Source: Isoetes taiwanensis
Taxonomy: Eukaryota; Streptophyta; Lycopodiopsida; Isoetales; Isoetaceae
NCBI GenBank assembly: GCA_021234155.1
Contig: JAJEKV010000054.1
Span: forward strand, 1,901,468-1,965,467
Direction: 5' to 3'
Length of the DNA: 64,000 bases
Below are positions 30,711-64,000 of this stretch, piece after piece. The position numbers and the translations under genes were made by a program. The notes under the pieces were generated by a model. The model did no database searches and was not told the DNA's origin. It saw only the letters and a program-made list of their open reading frames with translations. Position 1 is the first letter of the stretch. Each line of letters begins with the position of its first letter.

Positions 30711-30722
30711 GGTCTGCAGCGT

Positions 30723-31860
30723 TTGGCCAATGGGAAAGCAACGGACCTGGATGGTATGCAGGCAGAGTTGCTCAAGTGGGCAGGGGAGCCTATGGTACCA
30801 GTCCTAACCACTATGTTCAACAGAGCACTACAGGAAGGATTCCCCCAGCAGTGGACCACAAGCAGAGTTGTCCCCATTTACAAGGCAGGAGATCCACATA
30901 GTCTAACCAATTACCGAACAATCATGGTCAGTTCGGTGTTTGCCAGACTGCTAGCTGGCATTATTGAGCAACAGTTGACCAGGTGGACAGAAGCAACAGG
31001 TGTGCGAGCTCTCACGCAAGCATGGTTCAGACCCCGACATTCAACCATTGATCATATATTCACATTGAGGACTTTGGTTGAGGATAGCAGAAACCGTCGG
31101 CGGGACTTGTATTGTTGCTTTGTTGACTTTGCAAAGGCTTTTGACACTGTGCCTCGGGAAAAGTTATGGGAAAGATTGCGGCAACTGGAGGTTCCTGTGG
31201 ATATGCAAAATGCAGTATACATGTTGTAAGAGAGTTGTTCAGGTCAGATGCGGATGACGGGACAACCATTCACTAGCAGTATTGGGGTCCGCCAGGGATG
31301 TCCTCTTTCCCCAACATTGTTTGGTCTGTACATTGACCAGTTGGAACACTGGCTCATGGACAATGGGGGTGGCGGGACCCAACTTTTGCATCAGGTCATC
31401 AGGCAACTCATCTATGCAAATGATGTTGACCTCTAGCTCATACTCTAGAGGATATGCAGTCACACCTAGATGCTCTGGATACATTCTGCCAGGCCACAGA
31501 CATGAACGTCAATCTGGCCAAGACTAAGGTGGTCCTAATCTCATCCTCGCGCCATCCAAGGCCCCCTTCATTCACTTATCGAGGGCAACAAGTGGAGGTG
31601 ACACCCACTTGCAAGTATCTGGGAGTGGAGTATGCTGGGACACTTCCATAAGATTGCGTGTAGCAGCAGGCTGGAAAGCGCTTTATGCAATGCAGAACAA
31701 TAACCACAGAGCAGAATTGTATGATGGGGGACATCAGGCACATCTGTTCGAGGGGGTATTGGTAGAGCCCGTTCTTTCGTACGGGGTTGAAGTCCGGGGG
31801 CCCGATGGTGTCCCTTGCTACTTGGAGCGACTTAGAACAGTGCGAAGGCCTTCTTAGCAC
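30723..31860 (+). pseudogene. LINE-A reverse transcriptase, broken
   Basis: Non-LTR RT motifs appear in order: VVPIYKAGDP with the NYR block, RHSTIDHIFTLRTL, motif A CFVDFAKAFD (about 31118), motif B GVRQGCPLSPTLFGLYIDQLE (about 31285) and motif C as YAND at about 31417, where the catalytic YADD second position is Asn. Stops fall at 31227-31229 and 31434-31436, and a frameshift follows near 31640. No active RT is expected. Confidence 0.85.
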
Positions 31861-42634: not shown

Positions 42635-43518
42635 TCTTGTCTGTAAGGTTACCACTACCAGTTCATGATCTACAATTGATACTCACGGGCTTCAGATTTT
42701 CAAAACACAAATGAAAGTGCGCAAATGGCACCATGAAATGGGTTCAAACGAGTTTATGAAGCATTGGTAAAATTTATTTAAGAACAAGGTCCAAAAGCAC
42801 GAAAAAAGGTCTGGTTTCATTTAGACAATTAGCTACTCCTATGAGGTAGGTGCTTTGGTCAAATAGGATGAGTTGCCTTCATTAGTTGTGGGATAAAGCA
42901 GCCGTAATTTATAGTTAGTGTGTTCTTGCAATTTCGCTCAAAGAAAGAAAATTATATAACTCTGTTATGCCACCATGGAGAAAATACCCATCTTAGCAAA
43001 ACCACTAGCATTGAGCCATGAATAGGAATTGTGAAACTATCAAGTGAGTTAGCAACAAATATAAAGTGAATAACTTTAAAATATCATCTCACATAGCACA
43101 AGATATAGCTATTAAAACATAGTAAAGCATATATAAGGCATATACAACTTGACAGAGGATTGCAATCAACATCCTCTCAGACCACCTCCAGAGAAGATTG
43201 TACCTCACGCAATACATTCCAAATATACCCCTCAAGTCTGCAGATATTCTAAAAATACCTTTAGAAACAGGGTATTTGGCTCAAATGGCAATAAACATTT
43301 TTGTGATCGAATAAATAACAAAGTGCATTTCACAATGCTTATAGATGAGAGTAGCAGTGTAATTATCTCTTGGAATCTTCAAATTGCAATGGTTTAAAAA
43401 AGTGTTATAAAAAACAACTCAAATGAGTATAACTTGCAAATTTTCAATTCAGACAAGTTTGATCTTGTTAGAAAGTCCATATCCTATTCTCTAATTTTTG
43501 TGAAGACAACTTTTTTAT
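42635..43518. other. COG2 upstream region
   Basis: AT-rich DNA that should contain the COG2 5' UTR and promoter. The TTACAG just upstream of the ATG may be the acceptor of a leader intron. No clear TATA box can be assigned. Confidence 0.3.
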
Positions 43519-45167: not shown

Positions 45168-46727
45168 TGTGACGTTCCAAGTATTTATATGATCTACGTA
45201 TATATATATTGACACATCACCAGTATAGGTACGCCACCCTGGGGTATGATAACCTAGGGGGTTGGCCACAAGGGATTTAATTAGCTATGTTAAATTAATT
45301 ATAAAGGGATAATTATCTAAATACTTGCTATTAAGTCACCTAATGGTGGGAAGGCGCCATTTGGCATGACCTGAGTGGCCAGCATGGGGGTTTCTAAACT
45401 GAGCCACCAAAGGCAGCGCCACCCCCATCCAAACCCCAACCGACCCGGCCAAAGACCAAGGAGCAGCTAGGCGCCAAGGAACGATTCTTTGAACATCCCC
45501 AATCGCCGGACACCACGACACATTCTGCCGCCACCCCAAGACAAAGACTATGGAGGCACCCCTTGACAACGGCTCCAGCCGAAACTCTGGTTAGTGGTAG
45601 TTTAACTTGCAAATTGTAGATTAATACTTTGGTATTCTTTTCTGGTTAGTTCTGGTTGAGATTAACCCTTCTTTGGTAACTGGGAATACTTTTCAATTAT
45701 GAATGATGCTCTGTTATGGGATGGTCGATGTCTCTACGAGTTAGTTTAGTAGTTCCAAAGAAAGGGGATTAAAAGGGGGTAGAGGCCTCTCGAGCTTGTG
45801 TATAGAATGCTCCTAGTACTTCCGTTAACACCCTACTAGTTTCACCAGGCACAAGAGCCCACCGGGTCATAGACGCTATGGTCCGGCTTAGCACCAGGAC
45901 AAGGGACACAAGTGGTGAAGTAGGGGTGGGGTCTTGCACGCGAGCATAAAAGGCTCCCCGAGACTCCCTGCTGGGCTAGGGCCCGATAGCCTGGTCACGT
46001 AGAGGGCGGGTATGGTGCGACACTCCCGGTGGGGCACCATGCACTTTGAGTATAATTAGGGTGAGTAAGTCCTGCACGGATGCGGATCGCCGACGCCGCA
46101 CGTATTCTCTAGCTCACCCATGGAACCCGTGGATCCCGGAAGGGGACGCTTCCCCGACCTGCCTCATCGGACCAGGTGTCATGAACCTGGAGTAGGCTCA
46201 AAGGGTGATACCTTGAGTCTGCGTCTCCGGAAGGCTATAGCGAAGTCATAGCGTGAATCGACCCATCTGCAAAGTGTGTACAGGAGGGGCGGATGGAGTG
46301 GACAACCCTAGCCGATGTTCTATGCCAGCCAACGCCATGCCAAGATTCGGTCTGCTGATCTCCCCGAGACCCGGCCCGCCGATCGCTCCCCACTAGAGTC
46401 TGAGCCGGGGTAGGACCTGGGTTTTGGGCGTTTTCTTAGTTTAGATGCATATTCTTTGTGTTAATGTTTGGATGGATGCGCTACCCTTCGTGGTGGCTAT
46501 ATATATATGATTTATGTTGTGTGCTAACCCTTGTATTCATGCTTCATGACGAGGGCTTCATCAAAGGCGTGGGCCGAATGACCCCTCCGTGTCCTTCACC
46601 TGAGCGTCTCTACGTAGACGGCCCGGGTTAGATGGAGGGCCCTGCTCGTGGCGAGATGGTCGCCATGGGAGGGGAAAGTCCCCGTATGTATACGACCGGG
46701 GGTCGTATATATTCAGGGAGCATCACA
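45168..46727 (+). repeat. LTR 1 of the large Ty3/gypsy element (1560 bp)
   Basis: It starts TGTGACG and ends CATCACA. LTR 2 keeps a perfect 7-bp inverted end (TGTGACG/CGTCACA). LTR 1 has about 27 bp more near 45287-45313, where LTR 2 has a deletion between TAAAT repeats. A TATA-like CATAAAAGG lies at about 45947 and a TATATATATG at 46499. A 9-bp-stem hairpin TATACGACC-GGG-GGTCGTATA lies at 46690-46710 near the LTR end. Confidence 0.9.
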
Positions 46728-46740: not shown

Positions 46741-47514
46741 CGTGATTTCGGTTGCTCGAAATCATAGCACTGGCCAAACACTAACTCGTAGCACGGTAGT
46801 TAGGAGGAGGCTAAGTTAATGTGTTGATTAGTCCTCTTTGATGTTTGGTTCGGTGTTAGGTTAAATTATGAAATTGTAGCTTTAAAGAAGATAGGGCGAC
46901 TGGAGGGCCCAAGATTGGAAGAGATGTAAATATCAGTGGGTAGCTCAAAAGACGGAGAAGGTGGTTCCATTGGATCGGGCGTACTCAAATTACCCTAGAA
47001 CAGTCGTCTCCAGGCGAAAAATGGTCAAGGGCAGGCCCGAAAACCAACTCGGGCGCCGCTTGCTTTTTATCGTCTTGTAGTCACGGTGGAAGAGCCGAAA
47101 ATGCAGTCGGCGCCCGACCGTACAGATGGGAGTCAACGCGGCCCCGCAAGGTCAACTCGGGCGCCGCTTGCTTTTCGACGATTCCTAGTCGAGGCGAAGC
47201 GCCAGATAATGCCCGCGCATACCGACCAGATGCCCCCGTATTTTTGCGCCAGATAATTATTTTATAATAACAAAATTAAAAAGTTAATAAGAAAAATTTT
47301 AAAATTTCAAAAGTTAACTGGCCGTTCAAATTTCTTTTTGTTGTCTTATTTCGCCTTGCCTTCAGCGCCTTCGACCGCCAGAGCCGACGCCCGCCATCGC
47401 CACCAGACCTGACTCTGCTTTTTCGCCCTTGTGCCTTGTGAACCCTAGCGCCTCCCTTGCCGCCTTCTTCGCCGCCAGCGCCTTCACCGCCCTCAGTAGA
47501 CCTTAGCCACGCCT

Positions 47515-48770
47515 ATGGCCAATACCAAGAGCGCCCGGACCTTCTCGACCCTAACCATAGTTGAGATTTATGCCATGATCGCCCGGTATATGGCCACCGA
47601 CCCGGCTTTCATCGACATCCTTCTGGACGAGTTGGTGAACCGGTTTGAGAATAACGATAGGATCCCCTATCCTATCTACCACTTCTCGGAGCCATTCCTG
47701 ATCCGAATTTGAACCTTCGCCGACTTTCATATACCATCGTCGAGCAACATGACATGGTCATGATCCGATTAAGTTCTATCCTCCGAACAAGAGGGGCATA
47801 CCGAGGAGGAGGACATCAGACCGAGGCCGATCGCATCGTGAGGCTTGGCTAAGGAAGATGACCATCGAGATTGAGCGAGCGGATACGGGCGGCTCTGGGA
47901 AGGGAGTACCAGGTATTTAGGGGACGGACTTGCCGTCATAGATGGCAGGGCAATTGAGGTTCCCCGCATTTAATGGCGTGAAGCTTCCCGTGAGCTTTAT
48001 GTGGGGAGCCCCGATCCCCGAGCATCACCGATTACCTAACGACGCATCCGCATTGATATGAGTCACCGCCGCCCCGCACGGTACCATGTGAACTTCTTCG
48101 CCGGCGCTAAAGACAACATTTCGCCAAAGTTGAAGAAGATCTCGAGGAGAGCCCGGAGGAACGGGAGAGGCTTGAACAGAGGGAGAGGGCTCGGCAGACC
48201 GGGCTGAACCCGCAGGATCGGAGGGGCATCGTGGAGTGGTCGGGACCAATACCCACCGAAAGCACACACCATTAAGCACCGTGAAGAAGGCCGTGGGTCC
48301 AAAATCCCGGCAGTCAATATAAGGAGAAATTAAAGACCGCTTGAGCTTTTGGCAAGAATACCACCTCCAAATCGGAGACAAGAGCCGGGTGGATGACTCC
48401 CACCAGCCGTTGAGCCAAGACGGTGCTCGCACCCAAGGGGCCGCCTACAAAACCCGCCTCCCCACGAGGAAGCCCCATTGTGTTCCCAAGACTATTGCCT
48501 TTACGGAGATCCGAGAATTTTAGAAGTCAACCCAACTTCTCGATACGGAAGCTTCCCTTCCAGAGGTCTGGTACGGAGATCGCAAGCAGAGTTCAAAACC
48601 AATCTCCGCTTTCCGCACCTTTTGCTATTTTGGCGCCCAAGAGGTCGCGGAAGCCTATTTGGTGGCACTTTTGGTGACGCTTAACCTTTGCGCCGATCCA
48701 CGCAAAGAGAGTCACCATTATGCCAAAGGATTTAGCCCTCGCCCGCAGGATTCAGGGGGAGCGTCCTTAG
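47515..48770 (+). pseudogene. ORF1 (N-terminal unknown region plus histone H3 core), copy 1, broken
   Basis: Counterpart of 59028-60275. The same start (MANTKSA) is used, but the frame is shifted after residue 60 and again many times. The H3-derived part is recognisable at 48467-48770 and ends at the same TAG. Most differences from copy 2 fall at CAG or CTG in copy 2, for instance TTCTGATA to TTCTCGATA, GGCTGG to GGTCTGG and TTCCAGACC to TTTCCGCACC. The amber codon in place of H3 Gln55 (48522-48524) is shared with copy 2. Real decay and consensus error cannot be separated here. Confidence 0.75.
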
Positions 48771-48989
48771 CCTCGTGCTACCAGGGTTTTCCCATTGTAA
48801 ATATTTTTTGATAAATAATAAAAAAAAACCTCTTTTTGTTTAAAAGTCGAAATTCTATTAAGAACCTTATATTTGATTTTAAATGTCAAATTGCTGACGT
48901 CACCATAAATAAAAGGAGTTAAAAGAACTTTTAAAGTTCATTTCAATTGTTAGATTTGTTTCTCTTCCTCTCTCCTCCCTTCCAGCGCC

Positions 48990-50384
48990 ATGGCAGCCAC
49001 CGACTTGCTTGCATGGTACGAAGACGGAGATCACTGGGATCCGCAAGTGGCATTCGACTATTTGCGGCCCTTTTTACCGTGCCGCCTAGATCTCATTACC
49101 AACATGCAGCGGCATCCAGATTATGCCGGATTTCTAGACTTCTACATGGAGGAGATGCTCCCTCTGTGTATTCCTCTTGGGGATCCTCCCCAACTGTATC
49201 TGGAGCGGGAGGTAGTCCGGGAGATGTTAGGGGGAGACACCCATGCATATGATGTCTGTCAAGGGAAAGTCGGATGGGGCAAACACCGCCTGCTAGAAAA
49301 GATCGTATGCAATACCTTGAGGTTGCCTTCGCCTAGCCATCCTCATGGACCAATACGCCGAGGATGAAACCTTGCTCAGAGAAAGGCAAGCTGCCTCGAA
49401 GTCTTCGAGAGGGGAAGACGAACACATAGGCATGGGCTTAATTTCGCCCTGGAAGCAGATTGGCCGGAAGAGCTGCCACCGCGCCGTGAGCAAGCTGTAG
49501 GCTTGTCAGGGCTGGATGCCCTTCCAGTTATTTATCACCAAGGGCAAGAATATCTTCTCTTGGATGATATTATCTGGACTTATCACATGGTGGCCGGATT
49601 TAGACGCAAGCGTAAAGACCATGTGCTTTATGAGCTTGCGGAGTATTGTATGGACGAGTTCATCGACTTCACTCCTATTGAGCTTCCTCCGGAGGTGCAG
49701 CAGCTGCTCCAGTTCCGCCAAGAGACCATAGAGCCGGCTGAGACTCTACTACGTCTTCGGGAGCTGGTGATGCAGGAGCCGGCCTCTCAGCCCTCACCAG
49801 ATGCCTTCACGGCTATGGGACCCCATGTCCCAAATATCAATATGGTTGAGGTTCCCTCGGGTTCAGATGACGAGGGAGAGGATTTGTACCATAATCCTAC
49901 TCATTTGAAGGAGGAGCAACAGGAACTTAAGGAAGAAGAAGTCCCTATGGATTTGGATAAAGAAGTGGCCACGTCCGAGACCCCACAAGGGAAGGTATTG
50001 GGAAACCACCTTACCCGCTTCTTCTTATCAGCCTTTCAGCAGGGCCAAGTTCTTTTTATAGCCCGAGATTTAGGGCCGGAGGCTGAAGCTTCATGGTGGA
50101 CCCTCCGTGCTCTCTCCACATTGGCCGGGCACAAGAAGCTCCCCTATCGTACGTTTACTTATGTACTCGTGCGATGGGATCTTGCCTTGACGGCCTTGGG
50201 CCAGGATATTGCACCTTGGATGAGCATGAAACTTCTTACAGCAGCCCCATTGGCTGTTGCTTATCCACCAGAGGTTGCATCCATTGCGGCTGCCACAGTA
50301 GACCCCGGGGTGACTCTGCTGCGACACCGACCGCCTCCACCACCTCCTAGGCCTACGAATGAAGAGGGAGGACCTAGTTCCTAA
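48990..50384 (+). pseudogene. ORF2, unknown protein, copy 1, frameshifted in the middle
   Basis: Same start (MAATDLLAWYEDG) and end (RPTNEEGGPSS) as copy 2 at 60495-61895. Here codon 16 is TGG (Trp), whereas copy 2 has TGA, so this copy shows the likely original start. Frameshifts at about 49255-49500 break it. The 3' portion from 49503 (293 codons) is intact and nearly identical to copy 2. The protein has an acidic central part (about residues 285-330) and a Pro-rich C-terminus. Function unknown. Confidence 0.7.
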
Positions 50385-50581: not shown

Positions 50582-51070
50582 ATGTTCTATATTCATTTCC
50601 ATTGTCTTGCAGAAGAGACCCTTTGGGAATATGAGGAGAGGATTACCGACATGATCCGGAGGGAGGATCCAGGGCCGCCCGAGCAGGACTATGGCCAAAG
50701 ATATGGAGAATATCCAGAATGGGATGAGGGTTATGAGATGGAACCCCCGCCACCAGGAGAACCCTATGATCCAGCCAAAGGGATGGAGATAGTTAATATC
50801 CTCAGGGACAGAGCTTTTGAGGACCTGAAGAAAACTCTGTGCCGCACATGGGACTACTGGAGCATGACCAGGCACGAAGCCTTCGAGGACGCTAACGACC
50901 ACCTGTGGCAACTCTTTTATGCTTTGAGGAGGCTTTTCAATCTTCTCATTGTTAGCCCAACGTGGGAATACCAACCAGTAATTGTCCAGGCCTGGGCACG
51001 CTACAAGCTCGTTAGGGCTGTGCGTGAGAGTGTTCGCTACTCGATCCTGTACCCCTTTGCGAACCCCTAG
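50582..51070 (+). CDS. ORF3, unknown 162-residue protein, copy 1
   Basis: Intact, and differs from copy 2 (62093-62581) by only a few residues. It has an acidic, Pro-rich N-terminal half (PEWDEGYEMEPPPPGEP, about residues 45-61) and a basic, helix-prone, Trp-rich C-terminal half (DLKKTLCRTWDYW, about residues 80-92, and LWQLFYALRRLFNLL). A splice-acceptor-like TTCCATTGTCTTGCAG ends at 50612, inside the frame, so the true protein may begin at a spliced junction. No known domain is recognised. It lies between ORF2 and gag. Confidence 0.6.
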   Translation: MFYIHFHCLAEETLWEYEERITDMIRREDPGPPEQDYGQRYGEYPEWDEGYEMEPPPPGEPYDPAKGMEIVNILRDRAFEDLKKTLCRTWDYWSMTRHEAFEDANDHLWQLFYALRRLFNLLIVSPTWEYQPVIVQAWARYKLVRAVRESVRYSILYPFANP

Positions 51071-51320
51071 GCCGGGTCTTTCCAGTTTCGTTTTTTTTCA
51101 TGCTGTTTGTGAGCTCAACTTTAAGTTCCAGTTGTATCATGTTGTCTTTGTGTAATACTCCTGTATCAACTTTTGACAGTACTAAGGTGTAAAACTGTAA
51201 TAGAAAAGTTTTTCCTCTTATAATGATACATGTCCCTTATGTTTTCTCTCTCTACCCTTTGTCCGACATGATAAAAATTTGTAAGAATTTATGTGTTATA
51301 AATATGCTTATACCTTTTTC

Positions 51321-52619
51321 ATGCTCAATTTAGATGGGGCACGAACGCCGCCGCGGCGACGCCTTCAAATGCCGAGGGCTCACACCAACATGAACTGATG
51401 TTAATGAAAAGGCAGCTAGGCGAGTTACAAGCCTATGTGTTGCATGCCAACCCACCGCAGCAAACCCAAGAAGATGGACCGGAGTTACCTCCGCTACCAC
51501 CGAGTCCACCGCGACAACAGCCCATCTCCCCTCGGAGCCGCCCCCCCGCATTCGCGACCGAGGAGGCCTCATGCTAAGCATCACCGGGTTCCTCTAAGGA
51601 TAGTGCCACTTCCTCACGCCAACCACTTCGGGTCTTCTAGTTCATCGGTATCACCGGTGACCATGCAAAGCACCGGATAAGGAATACCGTAAGACGGTTG
51701 ATACAAACTATAACTAGTATATGGAAGAATAGGAAACCGCCCAGCTTTGATGGAAAATCCCGAGGTGGATGAATGCGAGTCCCTGGGTTGGGACTAAATG
51801 AAGGAGTTTGGGAAGTCCTATGGCATGACGGAGAAGGATACAGGAAAGGTTGCCACCACCAACCTTACAGGAGCTGCCCGTATTTGGTGGAAGGGCTATG
51901 CCAGGGCCAAGCATCTGGACATGAGCAGATGCAACTTCAGGAAGTTTGCCAAGGCATTCAAGTCACATTATGTGCCTCGTGCGCACAAATGCCAGCAGAT
52001 TCAGACCTTTTATAGGTTGGAGCAGAAGGGTATGACGGTTCAGGCTTACACTGATGAGTTTATGCGCTTGAGGCTGTATGTACCAGGTATGAATGAAAAG
52101 AGAGCCGTATTGGGGTATATTGAAGGATTGGCTCCATCAATCAAACGGATGGTTAAAGCCATAGACCCGAAATCAGTTGCGGAGGCTGAGGCTAAGGCAT
52201 TGAGCCTCGAGGAGGACACACCAAGAAACCAGTATCCGCGTCCTGCTCCGTACCCGCAGCCCCGGCCATCCACACCGTACAAACCCCGGTCGCCAAGTCC
52301 GGGAATTCCTATGGCCGCCAGGAAAAGAAAGTTACCTTCACCACGCCGGATAAACAGGGCAATGTCGGTAAGGAAGTACGGAACCTCTTACAGTCTATTC
52401 CTAAGGAAGCCCGAGAGCAGCTCCGCCGGGATAAGGCATGCTACAGGTGTATGCGGCCCGGCCACTTTATGCACAATTGTCCTTATGTTACGCAGACGCC
52501 TACCGGGCCATGGTCGACCTCGATTGGGACGATCTAGAGTCGACCTTTACCCTGGCTAAGAGGAGGCTCCCCGAGTACATTCACGGTAAGGCCTCATATC
52601 CTTGCAGCCTATAGAAACC
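51321..52619 (+). pseudogene. gag of the large element, copy 1, frameshifted
   Basis: Counterpart of the open gag at 62832. The first 450 bp are shifted repeatedly, while 51798-52300 is intact (retrotransposon gag core, WWKGYARAKHLDM). Relative to copy 2, 13 bases are missing near 52302, which shifts the frame before the zinc knuckle. The knuckle CYRCMRPGHFMHNC (CX2CX4HX4C, about 52439-52480) is still present in another frame. Gag would package the element RNA. It is followed closely by protease. Confidence 0.8.
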
Positions 52620-52623
52620 GGTA

Positions 52624-55600
52624 ATGCGGAAAGTCACCACCATCATTTCCACCATAGGTCAAGTAGACAGTAAGCCTTTCGTAATTCTTATGGATACGGG
52701 AAGTACACATAACTTTGCTTCTCCCAGGATGGCCCAGGTCTTACAGCTTGAAACATTAAGGTCCCGACCAAGACCTGTTACTCTAGCCAATGGTAAGGTC
52801 AGGCATACCCATGGCCGCCGCATCCATCTTAAGATGCAGTTGCCAGGTGCACCGGTTGCTTTGGGTGCCGAATTGATGGATATTGGCAAATATGACCTCA
52901 TTGTTGGTATGGAATTCTTGGCATCTGCAAAAGCCAACATAGACTGCGAGAAGAGAGAAGTTACCTTCAACGCAGCTAATGGAGCCCGCGTGACTATCAG
53001 AGGTGAACCATTCAACCCTATCATACAGTCTATCTCCATCAGGCAGTTAGATAAAGCTATACGCAGGGAAAAGCTCCTGTGCATCATTAGCCTTGCTTCC
53101 ATAGAGTCAGATGCTAAACAGAAGCAAGTAATCGATACCTTGCCAGAGGGGATTGCTCATCTTCTCCGAGAATTCGGTGACCTTTTTCCAGATGAGATCC
53201 AGAAGCTCCCTCCTTTTAGAGGGGTGGAATGTGAAATAGCTTTAGAGCCGGGTACCAAGCCTACCAGCAAGGCCCCGTACCGTATGAGTCCTCCAGAGTT
53301 GGCAGAACTTAAAAAGCAACTTCAGGAGTTACTAAACCTAGGTTTCATCCGACCTAGTGTTTCGCCTTGTGGCGCTCCTATCCTCTTCGTTAAGAAAAAG
53401 GACGGCTCCCTGAGGATGTGTATTGATTATCGGCAACTCAACAAGCATACCATCAAGAATCGCTATGCTTTGCCTAGAGCAGATGACCTAATGGATCAGT
53501 TGCAAGGGGCTAAATATTTCTCAAAGATTGATCTACGCTCCGGGTACCATCAAATAAGGATTAAAGAGGAGGATATCCATAAATCCGCTTTTCGCACTAG
53601 GTATGGGCATTATGAATTTACAGTTATGCCTTTTGGATTAACTAATGCCCCAGCAACTTTCATGCGACTAATGAATGATGTCTTTCGATAATACTTGGAT
53701 GACTTTGTTGTTATTTTCTTTGACGACATTCTCATCTATAGTAAGACCCTGGAGGAGCATGAGAAACATCTTAGGCTAGCCCTACAAAAGCTAAGGCGTC
53801 ATCAGCTCTATGCCAAGTTCTCTAAGTGCAAGTTTGCCACTCCAAAGGTCGATTATTTGGGCCATGTTATTTCGGCAGAGGGAATTGCTACAGACCCAGC
53901 AAAGATAGAGGCCGTAAAAGAATGGCCTATTCCAGGGAATGTTTCCGAAGTCCGGAGTTTCTTGGGATTAGCAGGATATTATCGAAAATTTGTAAAGGAT
54001 TTTGCAAAGATCGCAGCCCCTCTTACAAATCTCACAAAGCATGAGAAAGTAAGGGATTGGATGGAACACTGGAAGACAAAAGTTCAGGGCAGTTTCCAGT
54101 AACTTAAGAATGCTTTAACATCAGCACAAGTTCTCACGTTACCCGATCCTGAGCAGGATAAGCTAGTGGCGATGGATGCCAGTAAAATTGCCACCGGTGG
54201 AGTCCTAATGCAGGAGGGGAGGGTCATTGCTTATGATTCAAAGAAGATGAACGAGACAGAGCAGCGATATCCTACCCATGATCAGGAATTGTTAGCCGTT
54301 GTCCGTGCCTTGCGAATATGGAGACACTACCTTCTTGGTAGAAGATTCCAGTTGGATACGGATCATCAGAGTCTCCGTTATTTATCCACCCAGCCGAATC
54401 TCAACCTCCGCCAGAGAAGATGGATGGAATTTCTGGAGGAATATGATTTTGAGATTATGTACAAGCCTGGCAAGCACAATGTGGTTGCGGATGCATTGTC
54501 ACGCCATCCCTTGGTGACCCGAACCCATTGTAATGCCATTTCTACACTCACCAGTGAGTTTGGGAAACAGATAGAGCAAACCTTGGCCACAGACCCCGAA
54601 TTCTGTGACATTTGGGATAGTTTGGCTAAGGAAGCTCGCACGGATAAGGAACGCGAAGCCTTTCGTGCGTATAAGAAAGAGGGCAACTTATTATATCATA
54701 GGGATAAGTTGTGCGTACCTCAGACGTCGGGAGTCCGTAAGCTAATCCTCCACGACACCCACAACAGCCCTATAGCTGGACATGCAGGGTTTATGAAAAC
54801 CTACTTTAAGATTCGTTCCAGTTATTTTTGGCCTTCTATGAAAAAGGACATTGCTAGATACATTAAGCAGTGTCAGGTATGCCAGCAAACTAAGGCTGAA
54901 CAGTTAAGGATCCCAGGTGAGTTACAACCTCTAGACGTGCCCAACGCCAAATGGGAAGTGATAACCATGGATTTCATTGTGGGCCTTCCAAGAACTCTCC
55001 AGGGGTATGATGCCTTAATGGTTGTGGTCGACAAATTGTCGAAAATGGCTCATTTCTTGCCATGTCATACCACGGATACAGCCTTTGATACCGCTCTGCT
55101 ATTTGCCAAGGAGATCTTCAGATTACACAGAATGCCACGAGTAATTGTGTCAGATAGGGATCCCAAATTTGTAAGTGCATTCTGGAAAGATTTCTTTGCC
55201 ACCATTCAGACCAAGCTTGCTATGAGTACAGCATATCATCCTCAAACAGACGGTCAGACAGAACGTACCAATCGTATTATAGAGGATATGCTAAGAAGTT
55301 ATGTGTGGAGTAAGCAATCACAATGGGCTGACTATATTTATCTGGGCTTATAACAGCATGAAACAGGAGTCTTCCAGAATGTCTCCCTTTATGATAAACT
55401 ATGGTTACCAATGTCTTACTCCAGACACTTGGCATAACTCCGTTTCTAAGGTAGAGGTTTCTCAAAAACTCCTCCTGGAGATGCAAGCTCTGGTCGAAGA
55501 AGTTCGTGGCTACTTGTTGGCTGCACGCAGTCGTCAGAAGAGTGTAGCCGATAAGCACAGAACCCCACGCGTTTTCCAGGTGGGCGAATCAGTTTGGCTT

Positions 55601-56089
55601 AAGATTAAAGTGAAGCAAGCCAAGCTTAAGATTGGCAATTGTAAAAAGTTGGCCCCCAGATGGGCTGGACCATTCAAGATTATTGAGCGCGTTGGAGAGC
55701 AGGCATATCGCTTAGAATTGCCGCCCCGCTTGAAGATCCACAAGGTCTTTCACGTGAGTCTTTTGAAGCAACACACCCCTGATCCAGAGGAGGTTTTGGA
55801 TTCCCCAACCCTCCTAGAAATGACAGAAGAGCAACTCGAAATAGTGCCTGAAGCTCTTCTTGATCGAGCTTACAAACAAACCAGAAGGACTCAAATGTTG
55901 CAATACTTGGTTAAGTGGAAACACTTACCAGTGGAGGATGCTACGTGGGTAATGAAGATAGACCTTGACAAGCATTATCCGGACTTCATGCGCGAATCTG
56001 AAGGCCGCACCATCAACGATGCTATCAACCCCGCAACTGGCGGTAAGCTTAGAAGCTCGATTGCCAGGAGTAGCGCCATAGAGGGGTAG
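52624..56089 (+). pseudogene. pol of the large element: protease, RT, RNase H, integrase, chromodomain
   Basis: Protease [10 protein letters not shown] (about 52687). RT shows [29 protein letters not shown] and the catalytic FFDDILIYS (about 53713). RNase H residues are MDASK, DQELL, DTDHQSL and VADALS (about 54169-54510). Integrase has a H-x(n)-H and CQVC zinc site (about 54750-54890) and the DDE core in MDF, SDRDPKF and DGQTERTN (about 54970-55270). The last 80 codons include YLVKWKHLP and EDATW, a chromodomain. Breaks: TAA 53689-53691, TAA 54100-54102, and a frame change near 55345 where eight bases kept in the relic at about 10800 are missing. Upstream, a TAG at 52614-52616 separates gag from protease. 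Otherwise well preserved, so young. Confidence 0.9.
55840..55995 (+). other. Chromodomain-coding segment at the integrase C-terminus
   Basis: The frame reads LLDRAYKQTRRTQMLQ, then YLVKWKHLP, EDATW and DLDKHYPDF. This follows the chromodomain pattern of a beta strand with YLVKWKG, then E-x-x-TWE and a C-terminal helix. The first aromatic cage residue is not obvious, as in the group II chromodomains of plant chromoviruses. In known chromoviruses this domain directs integration to particular chromatin. Confidence 0.75.
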
Positions 56090-56702
56090 ATGCATCGTAA
56101 ATAACAACAAGTAACCGATGATGAGATCACCTTGTGTTCTCTAGGACGTGGTGTACTGTCAATAGTGACCTGACCACAACTTGTTGCAGAGCATATAGTG
56201 ATAGGCCGCCTTTTTTCGGCTACAATGGGAACTCGACCAATCCCTATGCTGCAAGGAACTGCAAACCATAGACATGATAGGTTCCCTGATAAATAGTATT
56301 TTCTTTTAATTATTATAAGGGGGTGGTCCCTTCAACCACAATTTCATCATATGTACTGATATACTGACATGTGCAGGCCAGTAAGCAGTGCGTGCCCTGC
56401 CCATGCTAGAGGGTTACTGATGACCCGACCTCTTCAAGTTTTGCTTTTGGCTACATACTTTGTTTGTTGTTCCACTGATGTTGGTATTGGACTTAGGTCC
56501 TTGAACTTTTTTTTGATTATGATAATCATCTGAAATGCACCTCGGTGCCTGAACTGTGTTTCAAACTCTAAAGTTTTGCTAATATTATTATATATATATA
56601 TATATATATATATATTACTCATGGAAAGTAAGGAATAATTTCTTCCTATATTTGTAACTAACACCAATGCTGGGGGCATCATTAATTCTAAGGAGGAGAG
56701 AA
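56090..56702 (+). other. 3' untranslated part of the large element with TA repeat and polypurine tract
   Basis: No gene. A TA dinucleotide run lies at about 56588-56615. The purine tract AAGGAGGAGAGAA (56690-56702) directly precedes the LTR and is the expected plus-strand primer. Confidence 0.8.
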
Positions 56703-58259
56703 TGTGACGTTCCAAGTATTTATACGGTCTACGTATATATATATTGACACATCACCAGTATAGGTACGCCACCCTGGGGTATGATAACCTAGGGGGTTGG
56801 CCACAAGGGATTTAATTAGCTATGTTAAATACTTGCTATTAAGTCACCTAATGGTGGGAAGGCGCCATTTGGCATGACCTGAGTGGCCAGCATGGGGGTT
56901 TCTAAACTGAGCCACCAAAGGCAGCGCCACCCCCATCCAAACCCCAACTTCGACCCAGCCAGCACCAAGGAGCAGCTAGGCGCTCAAGGAACAGTTGCTG
57001 AACATCCCCCAATCGCCAGACACCCTGACCTGTTGCTGCCACCCCAGTACAGCACTATGGAGGCACCCCTTGACAACGGCTCCAGCCGAAACTCTGGTTA
57101 GTGGTAGTTTAACTTGCAAATTGTAGATTAATACTTTGGTATTCTTTTCTGGTTAGTTCTGGTTGAGATTAACCCTTCTTTGGTAACTGGGAATACTTTT
57201 CAATTATGAATGATGCTCTGTTATGGGATGGTCGATGTCTCTACGAGTTAGTTTAGTAGTTCCAGTAAACAGGGATTAAAAGGGGGGTAGAGGCCTCTGA
57301 GCTTGTGTATAGAATGCTCCTAGTACTTCCGTTAACACCCTACTAGTTTCAGCCTGTGCACAAGAGCCCACCGGGTCATAGACGCTATGGTCTGGCTTAG
57401 CACCGGACAAGGGACACAGTGGTGAAGTAGGGGGTGGGGTCTTGCACGAGCATAAAAGGCTCCTGAGACTCCTACAGTGGGCTAGGCCTGATAGCCGGTC
57501 ACGTAGAGGGCCGGGTATGGGTCTGACACTCCCCGGGTGTAGTGGTGTGACCCGTATGGGGCACCATGCACTTTGAGTAGAATTAGGGTGAGTAAGTCTG
57601 CACGGATGATGGGTCGCCGACGCTGCGGCACGTATTCTCTAGCTCACCCATGGAACCATCGCGGATCTTGGAAGGGGACGCTTCCCCACCGCCTCATCGG
57701 ACCGGTGTCATGAACCCGAGTAGGCTCAAAGGGTGATACCTTGAGTCTGATCTCAGGGAAGGCTATAGCTTAAGTCATAGCATGAATCGACCCATCCGCA
57801 AAGTGTGTGTATGGGGGGGGGCGGATGGAGTGGACAACCCTAGCCGATGTTCTATGCCAGCCAACGCCATGCCAAGATTCGGTCTGCTGATCTCCTGAGA
57901 CCCAGCCGTCGGTCGCTCCCCACTAGAGTCTGAGCCGGGGTAGGACCTGGGTTTTGGGCGTTTTCTTAGTTTAGATGCATATTCTTTGTGTTAATGTTTG
58001 GATGGATGCGCCACCCTTCATGGTGGCTATATATATATGATTTATGTTGTGTGCTAACCCTTGTATTCATGCTTCCGCGACGTAGGCGCCCATCGAAGGC
58101 GTGGGCCGAATGACCCCTCCGTGTCCTTCACCTGAGCGTCTCTACGTAGACGGCCCGGGTTAGATGGAGGGCCATGCTCGTGGCGAGATGGTCGCCATGG
58201 GAGGGGAAAGTCCCCGTATGTATACGACCGGGGGTCGTATATATTCAGGGAGCGTCACA
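56703..58259 (+). repeat. LTR 2, shared by the two tandem copies (1557 bp)
   Basis: It starts TGTGACG and ends CGTCACA. It is preceded by the polypurine tract of copy 1 and followed after one base by the primer site of copy 2, so it is both a 3' and a 5' LTR. Long blocks equal LTR 1, while others differ by clustered small changes. The hairpin TATACGACC-GGG-GGTCGTATA recurs at 58222-58242. Confidence 0.9.
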
Positions 58260-59027
58260 GTGGTATCAGAGCCGTGATTTCGGTTGCTCGAAATCATAGC
58301 ACTGGCCAAACACTAACTCGTAGCACGGTAGTTAGGAGGAGGCTAAGTTAATGTGTTGATTAGTCCTCTTTGATGTTTGGTTCGGTGTTAGGTTAAATTA
58401 TGAAATTGTAGCTTTAAAGAAGATAGGGCGACTGGAGGGCCCAAGATTGGAAGAGATGTAAATATCAGTGGGTAGCTCAAAAGACGGAGAAGGTGGTTCC
58501 ATTGGATCGGGCGTACTCAAATTACCCTAGAACAGTCGTCTCCCGGCGAAAAATGGTCAAGGGCAGGCCCGAAAACCAACTCGGGCGCCGCTTGCTTTTT
58601 ATCGTCTTGTAGTCACGGTGGAAGAGCCGAAAATGCAGTCGGCGCCCGACCGTACAGATGGGAGTCAACGCGGCCCCGCAAGGTCAACTCGGGCGCCACT
58701 TGCTTTTCGACGATTCCTAGTCGAGGCGGAAGCGCGTATAATGCCGCCGGCGCCCGACGTATAATTATTTTATAATAACAAAATTAAAAAGTTAATAAGA
58801 AAAATTTTAAAATTTCAAAAGTTAACTGGCCGTTCAAATTTCTTTTTGTTGTCTTATTTCGCCTTGCCTTCAACGCCTTCGACCGCCAGAGCCGACGCCC
58901 GCCATCGCCACCAGACCTGACTCTGCTTTTTCGCGTCTTGTGCCTTGTGAACCCTAGCGCCTCCCTTGCCGCCTCCTTCGCCGCCAGCGCCTCACTGCCC
59001 GCCTCCGTAGACCTTAGCGCCACAGCT

Positions 59028-60275
59028 ATGGCCAATACCAAGAGCGCCCCAGACCCTTCGACCCTAACCATAGTTGAGATTTATGCCATGATCGCCCGGT
59101 ATATGGCCACCGACCCGGCTTTCATCGACATCCTTCTGGACGAGTTGGTGAACCAGTTTGAGAATAACGATAGGATCCCCTATCCTATCTACCACTTCTC
59201 GGAGCCATTCCTGATCCGGCTGAACCTTCGCCAGCTTTCATATACCATCGTCGAGCAACATGACATGGTCATGATGCTGATTAAGTTCTATCCTCCTGAA
59301 CAAGAGGGGCATACCGAGGAGGAGGACATCAGGACCGAGGCCGATCGCATCAGAGGCTTGGCTAAGGAAGATGACCATCGGGAGATTGAGCGAGCGGATA
59401 CGGCGACTCGGGGAAGGGAGTACCGGTATTTAGGGGACGGACTTGCCGTCATAGATGGCAGGGCAATTGAGGTTCCACCGTACGAATGGCATGAAGCTTC
59501 TCAGAGCTTCATGTGGGGAGCCCCGATCCCTGATATCAGCCTGGATTACCTAACGACGATCCAGATTGATATGAGTCAGCGGCCTCAGCGGTACCATGCT
59601 GAACTTCTTCGCCGAAGCGCAGCACAACATTTCGCTCAGGTTGAAGAAGATCTGAGGAGAGCCCGGGAGGAACGGGAGAGGCTTGAACAGGAGGAGAGGG
59701 CTCGGCAGGACCGGCTGAACCCGCAGGACGGAGGGGCATCAGGGAGTGGTCCGGGACCAATACCCACTGAGCACACGACCATTAAGCACCGTAAGAAGGC
59801 CGTGGCCCGAAAATCCGGCAGTCAATATAAGGAGAAATTAAAGACTGTCGGAGCTTTTGGCAAGAATACCACCTCCAGTCGGAGACAGCAGCGGGTGGAT
59901 GACTCCCGACCAGCTGTTGGAGCCAAGACGGTGCCTGCACCGAAGGGGCCGCCTACAAAACCCGCCCCACAGAGGAAGCCCCACAGGTTCCGCCCCGGCA
60001 CTGTTGCCTTACGGGAGATCCGTAAATTTTAGAAGTCAACCCAACTTCTGATACGGAAGCTTCCCTTCCAGAGGCTGGTATGGGAGATCGCGCAGGAGTT
60101 CAAAACCGATCTCCGTTTCCAGACCTTTGCTATTTTGGCGCTCCAAGAGGCTGCGGAAGCCTATTTGGTGGCACTTTTTGGTGACGCTAACCTTTGCGCG
60201 ATCCACGCAAAGAGAGTCACCATTATGCCAAAGGATTTAGCCCTCGCCCGCAGGATTCAGGGGGAGCGTCCTTAG
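59028..60275 (+). CDS. ORF1: retrotransposon protein with a C-terminal histone H3 core (amber codon at H3 Gln55)
   Basis: 416 codons including the final TAG. The start is the ATG in ACAGCTATGG. Residues 1-200 are unrecognised, and about 205-235 form an Arg/Glu coiled coil. A basic region holds an ARKS motif (residues 260-263), the sequence around H3 K9 and K27. From residue 316, [19 protein letters not shown] aligns without gaps to H3 residues 36-54, and codons 336-415 continue exactly to H3 residue 135 ([44 protein letters not shown]). Loop 1 has canonical H3 length, unlike most CENH3. Codon 335 (60030-60032) is TAG where H3 has Gln. The frame after it is intact, so the stop is recent, read through, or an error. 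As annotated without readthrough the protein ends at 334. Capture of a host H3 gene is inferred. Confidence 0.85.
59973..60275 (+). other. Histone H3 fold segment
   Basis: About 100 codons equal to H3 residues 36-135 with some 20 substitutions, among them R72W, S87F, G102A, E105G, Q125A and A135P, plus the amber codon at 55. Position 41 is Phe (as in plant H3.1) and 90 is Leu (as in plant H3.3). All helices of the fold are represented. Confidence 0.9.
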
Positions 60276-60494
60276 CCTCGTGCTACCAGGGTTTTCCCAT
60301 TGTAAATATTTTTTGATAAATAATAAAAAAAAACCTCTTTTTGTTTAAAAGTCGAAATTCTATTAAGAACCTTATATTTGATTTTAAATGTCAAATTGCT
60401 GACGTCACCATAAATAAAAGGAGTTAAAAGAACTTTTAAAGTTCATTTCAATTGTTAGATTTGTTTCTCTTCCTCTCTCCTCCCTTCCAGCGCC
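60276..60494 (+). promoter_or_regulatory. ORF1-ORF2 spacer with TATA-like box and acceptor-like pyrimidine tract
   Basis: An AT-rich spacer holds ATAAATAAAAGG (about 60411) and then TTTGTTTCTCTTCCTCTCTC...CCTTCCAG ending at 60490, four bases before the ORF2 ATG in a good start context (GCGCCATGG). It can be read as a 3' splice site that would expose ORF2 on a spliced mRNA, or as a promoter and leader. Copy 1 is identical here (48771-48989). Confidence 0.45.
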
Positions 60495-61895
60495 ATGGCA
60501 GCCACCGACTTGCTTGCATGGTACGAAGACGGAGAGCACTGAGATCCACAAGTGGCCTTCGACCAGCTGCGGCCCTTGCTGTGCCAGCGCCTAGATCTCA
60601 TTACCAACATGCAGCGGCATCCAGATTATGCCGGATTTCTAGACTTCTACATGGAGGAGATGCTCCCTCTGTGTATTCCTCTTGGGGATCCTCCCCAACT
60701 GTATCTGGAGCGGGAGGTAGTCCGGGAGATGTTAGGGGGAGACACCCATGCATATGATGTGCTGAAGGGAAAGCTCCAATGGGGCAAACACCTGCCCGTT
60801 GTGCAGCATCAGGGGCGGCAATACCTTGAGGTTGCCTTCGCCCTAGCCATCCTCATGGACCAATACGTCGAGGATGAAACCTTGCCTGTAGAGAAAGGCA
60901 AGCTGCCTGAGTCTTCCGAGGAGGGGGAAGACGAACACATAGGCATGGGCGACTTCGCCCGTTGGAAGCAGTTGGCGGAAGAGCTGCCACCGCGCCGTGA
61001 GCAAGCTGTAGGCTTGTCAGGGCTGGATGCCCTTCCAGTTATTTATCACCAAGGGCAAGAATATCTTCTCTTGGATGATATTATCTGGACTTATCACATG
61101 GTGGCCGGATTTAGATGCAAGCGTAAAGACCATGTGCTTTATGAGCTTGCGGAGTATTGCATGGACGACTTCATCGACTTCACTCCTATTGAGCTTCCTC
61201 CGGAGGTGCATCAGCTGCTCCAGTTCCGCCAAGAGACCATAGAGCCGACTGAGACTCTACTGCGTCTTCGGGAGCTGGTGATGCATGAGCCGACCTCTCA
61301 GCCCTCACCAGATGCCTTCACGGCTATGGGACCTCATGTCCCAAATATCAATATGGTTGAGGTTCCCTCGGGTTCAGATGACGAGGGAGAGGATTTGTAC
61401 CATAATCCTACTCATTTGAAGGAGGAGCAACAGGAACTTAAGGAAGAAGAAGTCCCTATGGATTTGGATAAAGAAGTGGCCACGTCCGAGACCCCACAAG
61501 GGAAGGTATTGGGAAACCACCTTACCCGCTTCTTCTTATCAGCCTTTCGGCAGGGCCAAGTTCTTTTTATAGCCCGAGATTTAGGGCCGGAGGCTGAAGC
61601 TTCATGGTGGACCCTCCGTGCTCTCTCCACATTGGCCGGGCACAAGAAGCTCCCCTATCGTACGTTTACTTATGTACTCGTGCGACGGGATCTTGCCTTG
61701 ACGGCCTTGGGCCAGGATATTGCACCTTGGATGAGCATGAAACTTCTTACAGCAGCCCCATTGGCTGTTGCTTATCCACCAGAGGTTGCATCCATTGCGG
61801 CTGCCACGGTAGACCCCGGGGTGACTCTGCTGCGACACCGACCGCCTCCACCACCTCCTAGGCCTACGAATGAAGAGGGAGGACCTAGTTCCTAA
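60495..61895 (+). CDS. ORF2, unknown 466-residue protein, copy 2
   Basis: The frame is open from the ATG at 60495 to 61895 except for a TGA at codon 16 (60540-60542), where copy 1 has TGG. Translation could restart at the Met at 60552. Features: an internal duplication of LPV-x-x-HQG-x-x-YL (about residues 115-126 and 177-188), a Pro/Ser/Glu-rich acidic region (about 280-330), and a Pro-rich end with six consecutive prolines. No signal peptide, membrane segment or known enzyme motif is recognised. It lies between the H3-like ORF1 and ORF3. Near-identity with copy 1 shows it is a stable part of the family. Confidence 0.7.
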
Positions 61896-62092
61896 ATAAT
61901 TGTACTACACATTTTTGTATTGTGTATGATTGTAAAATTTTGGTTTGGCAAATTCTCTCGCCATTTTATAATATATTATACCCCTTTTCTCATCAATTGT
62001 GATTACTGTTTTGATGAATACAATTGAGAATTGTTCTTTTCCATGATGTCTTCTTCTAATTATTGGCGTTTAGAATATAATGAAATTACGGA
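61896..62092 (+). other. ORF2-ORF3 spacer
   Basis: AT-rich, about 200 bp, nearly identical in both copies. A splice-acceptor-like TTCCATTGTCTTGCAG ends just inside ORF3 (62123). Confidence 0.4.
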
Positions 62093-62581
62093 ATGTTCTA
62101 TATTCATTTCCATTGTCTTGCAGAAGAGACCCTTTGGGAATATGAGAAGAGGATTACCGACATGATCCGGAGGGAGGATCCAGGGCCGCCCGAGCAGGAC
62201 TATGGCCAAAGATATGGAGAATATCCAGAATGGGATGAGGGTTATGAGATGGAACCCCCGCCACCAGGAGAACCCTATGATCCAGCTAAAGGGATGGAGA
62301 TAGTTAATATCCTCAGGGACAGAGCTTTTGAGGACCTAAAGAAAACTCTGTGCCGCACATGGGACTACTGGAGCATGATCAGGCACGAAGCCTTTGAGGA
62401 CGCTAACGACCACCTGTGGCAACTCTTTTATGCTTTGAGGAGGCTTTTCAATCTTCTCATTGTTAGCCCAACGTGGGAATACCAACCAGTAATTGTCCAG
62501 GCCTGGGCACGCTACAAGCTCGTTAGGGCTGTGCGTGAGAGTGTTCGCTACTCGATCCTGTACCCCTTTGCGAACCCCTAG
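62093..62581 (+). CDS. ORF3, unknown 162-residue protein, copy 2
   Basis: Intact and almost the same as copy 1 (50582-51070); the visible residue changes are E/K in the first helix and T/I near residue 97. The first dozen residues are coded by what looks like a pyrimidine-rich splice acceptor, so the true N-terminus could be near EETLWEYE. The C-terminal half is Trp/Arg-rich and helix-prone (VIVQAWARYKLVRAV). It may be a DNA- or RNA-binding or Gag-associated accessory factor, but nothing proves this. Confidence 0.65.
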   Translation: MFYIHFHCLAEETLWEYEKRITDMIRREDPGPPEQDYGQRYGEYPEWDEGYEMEPPPPGEPYDPAKGMEIVNILRDRAFEDLKKTLCRTWDYWSMIRHEAFEDANDHLWQLFYALRRLFNLLIVSPTWEYQPVIVQAWARYKLVRAVRESVRYSILYPFANP

Positions 62582-62831
62582 GCCGGGTCTTTCCAGTTTC
62601 GTTTTTTTTCATGCTGTTTGTGAGCTCAACTTTAAGTTCCAGTTGTATCATGTTGTCTTTGTGTAATACTCCTGTATCAACTTTTGACAGTACTAAGGTG
62701 TAAAACTGTAATAGAAAAGTTTTTCCTCTTATAATGATACATGTCCCTTATGTTTTCTCTCTCTACCCTTTGTCCGACATGATAAAAATTTGTAAGAATT
62801 TATGTGTTATAAATATGCTTATACCTTTTTC
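62582..62831 (+). other. ORF3-gag spacer
   Basis: An AT-rich spacer of 250 bp, the same in both copies (51071-51320). It ends with CTTATACCTTTTTCATGCTCAATTTAG, in which the gag ATG (62832) lies upstream of a possible acceptor at 62844. Confidence 0.4.
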
Positions 62832-64000
62832 ATGCTCAATTTAGATGGGGCACGTAACGCCGCCTGGCAGACGCCTTCAAATGCCAGTAGGCTCACACCC
62901 GAACATGAACTGATGTTAATGAAAAGGCAGCTAGGCGAGTTACAAGCCTATGTGTTGCATACCAACCCACTGCAGCAAACCCAGGAAGATGGACCGGAGT
63001 TACCTCCGTTACCACCGAGTCCACCTGCACAACAGCCATCTCCCCCTGGAGCCAGTCCTGTACCTGCACCGAGGAGGCCTCATGCTAAGCATCACCGAAG
63101 TTCCTCTAAGGATAGTGCCACTTCCTCACGCTCAACCACTTCGGGGTCTTCTGGTTCATCGGTATCAGCTGGTGACCATGCAAAGCGCCGGGATAAGGAA
63201 TACCGTAAGACGGTTGATACAGCTATAACTAGTATATGGAAGAATAGGAAACTGGCCCAGTTTGATGGAAAATCCCGAGGTGGACTGAATGCAGAGTCCT
63301 GGTTGGACGAAATGAAGGAGTTTGGGAAGTCCTATGGCATGACGGAGAAGGATACAGGAAAGGTTGCCACCACCAACCTTACAGGAGCTGCCCGTATTTG
63401 GTGGAAGGGCTATGCCAGGGCCAAGCATCTGGACATGAGCAGATGCAACTTCAGGAAGTTTGCCAAGGCATTCAAGTCACATTATGTGCCTCGTGCGCAC
63501 AAATGCCAGCAGATTCAGACCTTTTATAGGTTGGAGCAGAAGGGTATGACGGTTCAGGCTTACACTGATGAGTTTATGCGCTTGAGGCTGTATGTACCAG
63601 GTATGAATGAAAAGAGAGCCGTAGAGGGGTATATTGAAGGATTGGCTCCATCAATCAAACGGATGGTTAAAGCCATAGACCCGAAATCAGTTGCGGAGGC
63701 TGAGGCTAAGGCATTGAGCCTCGAGGAGGACACACCAAGAAATCAGTATCCGCGTCCTGCTCCGTACCCCCAGCCCCGGCCATCCACACCGTACAAACCC
63801 CGGTCGCCAAGTCCGGGCCCCTCTCAGCAGAATTCCTATGGCCGCCAGGAAAAGAAAGTTACCTTCACCACGCCGGATAAACAGGGCAATGTCGGTAAGG
63901 AAGTACGGAACCTCTTACAGTCTATTCCTAAGGAAGCCCGAGAGCAGCTCCGCCGGGATAAGGCATGCTACAGGTGTATGCGGCCCGGCCACTTTATGCA
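62832..64000 (+). CDS. gag of the large element, copy 2 (partial, runs off the window)
   Basis: An open frame of 389 codons from the ATG at 62832 to the window end. Residues 1-110 are Pro/Ser-rich and basic. From about residue 130 comes a retrotransposon-gag core (KLAQFDGKSRGGLNAESWLDEM, ARIWWKGYA, then VPRAHKCQQIQTFYRLEQ). A Pro-rich linker follows, and CYRCMRPGHF begins a CX2CX4HX4C zinc knuckle cut by the window end. Gag forms the particle that packages element RNA. Copy 1 confirms the knuckle and the following protease. The start could also be a spliced junction at 62845. Confidence 0.85.
   Translation, partial: MLNLDGARNAAWQTPSNASRLTPEHELMLMKRQLGELQAYVLHTNPLQQTQEDGPELPPLPPSPPAQQPSPPGASPVPAPRRPHAKHHRSSSKDSATSSRSTTSGSSGSSVSAGDHAKRRDKEYRKTVDTAITSIWKNRKLAQFDGKSRGGLNAESWLDEMKEFGKSYGMTEKDTGKVATTNLTGAARIWWKGYARAKHLDMSRCNFRKFAKAFKSHYVPRAHKCQQIQTFYRLEQKGMTVQAYTDEFMRLRLYVPGMNEKRAVEGYIEGLAPSIKRMVKAIDPKSVAEAEAKALSLEEDTPRNQYPRPAPYPQPRPSTPYKPRSPSPGPSQQNSYGRQEKKVTFTTPDKQGNVGKEVRNLLQSIPKEAREQLRRDKACYRCMRPGHFM

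Follow-up and report, generated by a model that had tools for sequence, protein, structure and literature searches.

The window analysed here, a stretch of 64,000 nucleotides from the genome of Isoetes taiwanensis, contains an open reading frame (ORF1, 59028..60275, +) that lies within an LTR retrotransposon and ends in the core of a histone H3. This raises the question of whether a core histone has become a working part of a retroelement and, if so, what such a protein may do for it. The reading preferred here, which is given a probability of roughly 0.72, is that a captured H3 has been kept as an element-encoded variant, in which an N-terminal extension of approximately 315 residues replaces the histone tail, and that this variant enters chromatin or serves as a tether.

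The initial annotation, made from the letters alone, had aligned codons 316-415 of ORF1 with H3 residues 36-135 without a gap and up to the H3 stop. This alignment stands. The segment (59973..60272, +) matches H3 in a phmmer search of the PDB (E 1.1e-50) and the Pfam Histone family (E 4.8e-38), and 83 of 98 residues are identical, with no gap, to the H3.3 chain of 7ux9, presumably a plant H3.3. A chance or weak similarity is ruled out by the PDB match (E 1e-50), and phmmer, Pfam and the alignment all identify an H3-type histone fold. The centromeric variant CENH3 typically has a longer loop 1 and a divergent core; identity with CENH3 was rejected, as the alignment to canonical H3 is ungapped and contains no loop insertion. 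ORF1 as a whole is composed of an N-terminal domain, a charged coil, a basic linker and the H3 core, and is, as had been claimed, a single frame interrupted by one amber codon, at 60030, and terminating at the H3 stop position. In 1000 sequences simulated with a similar composition, no stop-free run extended to 334 codons or more, and the longest was 281. An alternative code in which TAG specifies an amino acid was set aside, since TAG closes the H3 core itself and the internal site is a sense codon in 43 of 44 full-length, ungapped genomic cores, the window's own being the single exception. Single-sequence AlphaFold models of the H3 piece downstream of the amber codon and of the N-terminal domain were of low confidence (mean pLDDT 56.5 and 41.7, respectively).

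By its sequence, the carrier is a chromovirus (Ty3/gypsy) with three extra ORFs between the primer-binding site (PBS) and gag. An 11.5-kb unit is present twice in the window, head to tail, with starts at 45168 and 56703, and the features of both copies lie on the forward strand (+). The LTRs, of approximately 1.56 kb each, start with TGTGACG, end in CGTCACA or CATCACA and are followed by TGGTATCAGAGC. Repeat comparison places the 5' LTR of copy 1 at 45168..46727 and its repeat at 56703..58259 (TGTGACG...CGTCACA, 1557 bp). The latter has TG...CA termini, with the polypurine tract AAGGAGGAGAGAA (56690..56702) on its 5' side and the PBS TGGTATCAGAGC (58261..58272), which we take to be of the initiator tRNA-Met type, on its 3' side. 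ORF1 is followed by ORF2 (60495..61895, with its ATG at 60495, a single TGA at 60540 and an open frame from 60543), by ORF3 (62084..62581, from ORF reading) and by gag (62796..63998, ending at the window edge), which matches Ty3_capsid (E 6.5e-17) and Retrotrans_gag (E 5.3e-16) in Pfam and contains a zinc knuckle recognised by eye. The pol region can be read in copy 1 (52615..56089), where Pfam matches to RVP_2, RVT_1, RT_RNaseH, Integrase_H2C2, rve and Chromo give the order protease, reverse transcriptase, RNase H and integrase despite frames broken by stops at 53689, 54100 and 55351. A chromodomain (PF00385, E 2.6e-8) forms the C-terminus of the integrase, at residues 184-232 of the last pol ORF. 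The order combined from both copies is LTR-PBS-ORF1(H3)-ORF2-ORF3-gag-pol-chromodomain-PPT-LTR.

Read by eye against what we take to be the cage positions of HP1, the integrase chromodomain lacks two of the three cage aromatics, so no case is made for an integrase that reads methylated tails of ORF1-H3. Two of the three are also missing from type II chromodomains, according to the accessible text of PMC6317226. ORF2 gave no match in a Pfam search, neither ORF1 nor ORF2 has relatives in the prokaryote collection or the viral contigs searched, and the H3 piece has none in the viral contigs. The possibility that ORF1 is a paralogue of ORF2 or ORF3 was discarded, as their alignments score no higher than those of shuffled sequences. 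Transduplication of H3 by a hAT-type transposon, with terminal inverted repeats and a hAT transposase, does not describe this carrier, which is an LTR retrotransposon. Splice-acceptor-like sites (a pyrimidine tract and AG) were found at 60466-60490, 62099-62123 and 62820-62844, directly 5' of ORF2, ORF3 and, by eye, gag, and these three may be expressed from spliced transcripts; the same scan found acceptor-like sites inside ORFs too. The 64 kb contain just two occurrences of TGACGTCA, at 48895 and 60400, an equivalent place in both copies, just 5' of a TATA-like stretch upstream of ORF2. Other features of the window include the N-terminal domain of COG2 in a host gene exon (42164-42682, -; E 4.4e-25) and a probable remnant of a non-LTR retrotransposon (29721-31229, +), with RVT_1 at 30711-31229 (E 1.5e-9).

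The initial annotation had argued that H3 belongs to the element because both copies contain it. The segment is indeed present in copy 1 (47515..48790, +), but its frame is broken there rather than intact. Furthermore, the middle LTR is common to both copies, which makes them a tandem pair rather than independent insertions, and copies linked in this way are by themselves no proof that H3 is part of the element. Between 47506 and 48800, 176 alignment columns distinguish the copies; six genomic relatives were compared at these columns, and every one of them matches copy 2 in 144-160 and copy 1 in 10-13. Differences over the shared 7.3 kb are clustered (variance/mean 7.5), with 18 of 74 intervals free of any difference where 0.2 would be expected. 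Because of this clustering, and because the six relatives side with copy 2, the breaks in ORF1 of copy 1 look like patches of unpolished assembly or local decay. Clustered substitutions and indels are seen at 45418-46378, 47126-49600 and 51343-51833, beside near-identical stretches, and over ORF1 the clustered differences are mostly peculiar to copy 1.

The membership of H3 in the element is supported instead by copies elsewhere in the genome, for which one assembly (1.658 Gb) was searched. A sample blind to H3 was obtained with ORF1 codons 1-315 only, which gave 126 scored copies from 4526 candidates; 70 of these were fetched, namely the 30 best (window included), the 20 ranked directly below them and 20 from close to the end of the list. 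In this sample, which was chosen by the ORF1 N-terminus rather than by gag or RT and comes from among the best-scoring candidates, an H3-core match was present in all 70 copies (69 besides the window). The core is full length, ungapped and stop-free in 42 of the 70 and full length and ungapped with one stop in a further two, the window among them. It is gapped or partial in 26, which brings the gapped, partial or stop-bearing cores to 28.

The amber codon of the window copy and the broken frame of its partner are what would be expected if the H3 piece were an inert fragment, captured by transduplication, spread by hitch-hiking and now decaying. Such a fate has a parallel in Pseudocercospora fijiensis, where captured H3 copies are inactivated except for the original gene, according to the accessible text of PMC6710886. 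Comparison of the genomic copies makes this explanation of the Isoetes element very improbable. Pairwise Nei-Gojobori counts on the 42 intact-core copies (95% intervals by codon bootstrap), which are not branch-based, include many pairs of high dS and draw on the better-preserved copies, gave a pN/pS of 0.049 (0.030-0.077) for the H3 core, 0.143 (0.109-0.180) for ORF1 codons 1-200 and 0.299 (0.231-0.376) for codons 201-315. The core therefore has the lowest ratio of the ORF1 parts compared, close to 0.05 and not near 1; this contrast within ORF1 is less affected by preservation bias, though the 42 copies were kept for an intact H3 core. Addition of the two stop-bearing full-length copies gave 0.052. 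Within subfamily B the ratio for the core is 0.070, between subfamilies (crudely labelled) it is 0.10-0.13 and for seven host H3 loci it is 0.024, the between-subfamily and host values being rough because pS is near saturation. The fold is also kept in subfamilies whose synonymous sites have diverged, and the stop at the window's amber codon is, as described above, private to the window copy among the full-length, ungapped cores. As judged from these copies, the H3 core has been under long-term purifying selection in this genome. Of the outcomes that the initial annotation had named as counting against it, none was observed in the one genome searched. A neutral simulation from the window copy alone, now superseded by the copy-based test, yielded missense changes as conservative as those observed in 0.275% and 0.025% of 4000 runs (two starting H3s); the stop count was that expected without selection.

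Strong purifying selection is equally a property of host genes, and ORF1-H3 might be imagined as a family of host H3 variants that lies beside chromovirus debris by chance. This is scarcely credible in view of its surroundings. ORF1 of the window is placed between the PBS and gag-pol, and H3 occupies an equivalent place in both tandem copies. Among 30 genomic ORF1 loci (29 elsewhere and the window), an ORF2 match is present in all 30 when 1.5-kb flanks are taken in, and the 12-mer PBS TGGTATCAGAGC is found exactly in 23, lying approximately 0.8 kb upstream of ORF1 in 22 of these. The sheer number of copies also argues against a host family: the nine-residue signature DANLCAIHA has 651 + 618 = 1,269 exact matches in the genome, spread over many contigs, and its reversed pattern has none (0 + 0). 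The host H3s examined lack this signature because they carry T107.

A search of the genome with the Histone family scored the best 150 of 8704 first-look candidates. The 15 top rows of these 150 are host-type, and are followed by 135, in many of which the match begins at position 20 of the profile and lies within a long open frame. All eight host-type rows that were fetched (L001-L008) have a host-type core, and the four for which a full reading was given have a full H3 tail. With 1,269 signature matches against 15 host-type rows among the best 150 of 8704, H3 genes of the element probably outnumber those of the host. Twenty further loci chosen from this search brought the collection to 90 (L097 is the same place as L063), and in 37 of these a single open frame covers 300 or more codons upstream of the core and the entire core as well. 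The core is full and ungapped in 64 of the 90, 61 of them stop-free.

At least four subfamilies of the element were distinguished among the loci examined. Outside the window's own subfamily (A), the N-terminal part of ORF1 is 27-41% identical to that of the window (in L090 it is not alignable), and the H3 core is 85-90% identical to host H3. A subfamily B locus (L085, which continues in L099) has ORF2, ORF3, gag and protease downstream of H3, arranged as in the window. Identity with the window is about 30% in the N-terminal part of ORF1, 42% in ORF2, 80% in ORF3, 88% in gag and 92% in the protease portion of pol, the gag and protease values coming from L099 compared with 50588-53123 and 62099-64000. 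Past the protease, the 7 kb of this copy contain nothing that matches the pol of the window, which implies that it is interrupted or truncated. The closeness of gag and protease, set against the distance of ORF1 and ORF2, points to faster evolution or recombination of the 5' block, which looks to have been exchanged or to be fast-evolving.

Despite these distances, the H3 cores appear to share one origin. In an IQ-TREE analysis of 42 cores (the B, C and D rows, 14 A rows and eight from the host, with 26 A rows left out), all 34 element cores form one clade against the eight host H3s, with support of 100/98.7; two rows labelled D by a crude rule group inside A. In FastTree, 42 A cores likewise fall together apart from seven host genes, with a weak support of 0.61. 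As the element cores form a single clade apart from the host, a single old capture of host H3 is the simplest reading. How the fusion came about is suggested by the start of ORF1, which reads MARTKGT in L098, a copy of another subfamily than A, where host H3 starts MARTKQT. Among 31 copies of subfamily A, the start is MA-x-TK in 29; an exact ARTK at this place has a chance probability of about 2e-5. On the basis of these starts, the fusion may have arisen by insertion of an element domain into the H3 tail, an idea against which the M-P/S-RFK start of three subfamily-B copies counts. Elsewhere in the window, a decayed H3-like remnant at 9507-9632 scores 35.8 bits, compared with 23.5 for the best of 200 shuffled 45-kb sequences. 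It lies approximately 200 bp upstream of, and in the same orientation as, a degraded RNase H-integrase fragment of a chromovirus (9838-11113; 53-66% identity at the protein level). It may stem from a more ancient relative that carried H3 and has lost an internal segment, or may be an unrelated pseudogene of H3.

The initial annotation had proposed that such a protein could be built into nucleosomes, label the chromatin of the element or compete with the H3 of the host. The residues retained and replaced in the core bear on its possible function. Arginines 40, 49, 63, 69, 83 and 116, which we take to be the minor-groove (DNA-contact) arginines of H3, are unchanged in the window copy, as are residues 110, 113, 114, 123, 126, 129 and 130, presumably those of the H3-H3' bundle. 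Ten positions (54, 59, 86, 87, 89, 102, 105, 107, 124 and 125) are unlike the host in at least 42 of 44 subfamily-A cores, and at six of these (86, 87, 89, 105, 107 and 124) the majority residue differs from the host in all four groups compared. Residues 87-90 accordingly read FAIL or HAIL in the element, given a majority I at 89 in all four groups, and SAVL or TAVL in the host. This stretch of H3 is described as the chaperone-recognition site that sets replication-coupled or replication-independent assembly, in the accessible text of PMC9145170.

Upstream of the core, the basic linker of the window copy contains an ARKS motif (codons 260-263, 59805..59816, +). Among the 42 copies this motif is ARKS in 21 and ARKT in 12 (33 of 42 together), and when the N-terminal part of the window copy was shuffled 20000 times, one or the other appeared in 285 of the resulting sequences. 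When the linker was aligned with the tail of host H3, the score was no higher than for shuffles in six of seven copies, and in the seventh 39 of 1000 shuffles scored as well; the proposal of an H3 tail hidden in the linker was therefore dropped. The short MA-x-TK start and ARKS/T are leads, but no H3 N-terminal tail was identified, and tail-based H3 functions are thus not supported.

A protein with so long an extension in place of the H3 tail, and with majority residues that depart from the host in and next to the stretch recognised by chaperones, might never enter a nucleosome. Its H3 fold could instead bind host H4, chaperones or importins, either to help capsid, integrase or cDNA reach the nucleus or to sequester chaperones, and fold constraint alone could preserve the H3-H3' and DNA-contact residues. 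A mere tether, however, needs none of the six presumed DNA-contact arginines that are unchanged in the window copy. A decoy of this kind, or tethering without stable incorporation, is considered the less likely reading and ranks second. Incorporation of ORF1-H3 in nucleosomes or H3-H4 is rated as rather probable.

The preferred reading, of a captured H3 kept by the element as its own variant, can be set out as a sequence of steps, of which the capture, the fusion, the position behind the PBS, the single origin and the purifying selection are shown, for this one genome, by the comparisons above. A chromovirus lineage captured the coding sequence of a host H3 a single time in the distant past, placed it at the C-terminal end of ORF1 and has kept it as a working histone fold. 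The ORF1-H3 protein would be translated from genomic RNA, pair with host H4 and be loaded by host chaperones, with a pathway preference altered via residues 87, 89 and the adjoining 86. It would then enter chromatin, or tether element proteins to H4 or to chaperones, either on newly made element DNA, where it might delay silencing, or at integration sites. That a family-owned H3 variant deposited by host chaperones confers a private chromatin state on the element is put at even odds. If this is correct, a selfish element would be editing the nucleosome itself instead of reading its marks. The family would also be a test case, provided by nature, for the capacities of an H3 core joined to an N-terminal domain of approximately 315 residues, and would offer a new angle on how LTR elements, here with a chromodomain on the same element, escape or use silencing.

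The initial annotation knew of no retroelement with a captured core histone. This holds for retrotransposons, for which no report of a histone was found in the open-licence literature searched, but the capture of H3 by a transposable element has precedents in the hAT DNA transposons of fungi (PMC3538342 and PMC6710886, in their accessible text). Consequently, H3 captured by transposable elements is already known, and its occurrence in an LTR retrotransposon is without precedent in the literature searched. Ty3/gypsy elements of orchids encode an AlkB-type RNA demethylase, PMD, G-patch and other domains, and resemble the Isoetes element in that a host-type domain has been kept through the radiation of an LTR element (PMC9289625, accessible text). 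The same source reports 15 recurrent extra domains in 25,565 consensus elements from 121 angiosperms, with no histone among those named in the text, as distinct from its figure and supplement.

Captured core histones are also encoded by viruses. Single H3s are described in Dishui Lake phycodnavirus, Manila clam xenomavirus and Sylvanvirus, and share with ORF1-H3 a captured core fold, which is 73-87% identical to that of a possible host; the tail is extended in three of six and residues 87-90 are SAIL or TAIL in three of six (PMC9145170, accessible text). These are DNA viruses, however, and their extensions amount to tens of residues rather than approximately 315; the words retrotransposon and retrovir- are absent from the main text of that paper. 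The H4 of bracoviruses is another core histone captured by a DNA virus. The closest parallel in kind is provided by the H3-like genes of hAT transposons in Pyrenophora tritici-repentis, P. fijiensis and relatives, where, as here, an H3 of the host was taken up by a transposable element and thereby increased in copy number (PMC3538342, PMC6710886). In the accessible accounts, those elements belong to class II, carry H3L as a separate gene and, in P. fijiensis, have been inactivated by RIP. In Isoetes, by contrast, the carrier is a class I LTR retrotransposon, in which H3 is fused to a large N-terminal domain within an ORF that follows the PBS, and has been maintained in several subfamilies under long-term purifying selection.
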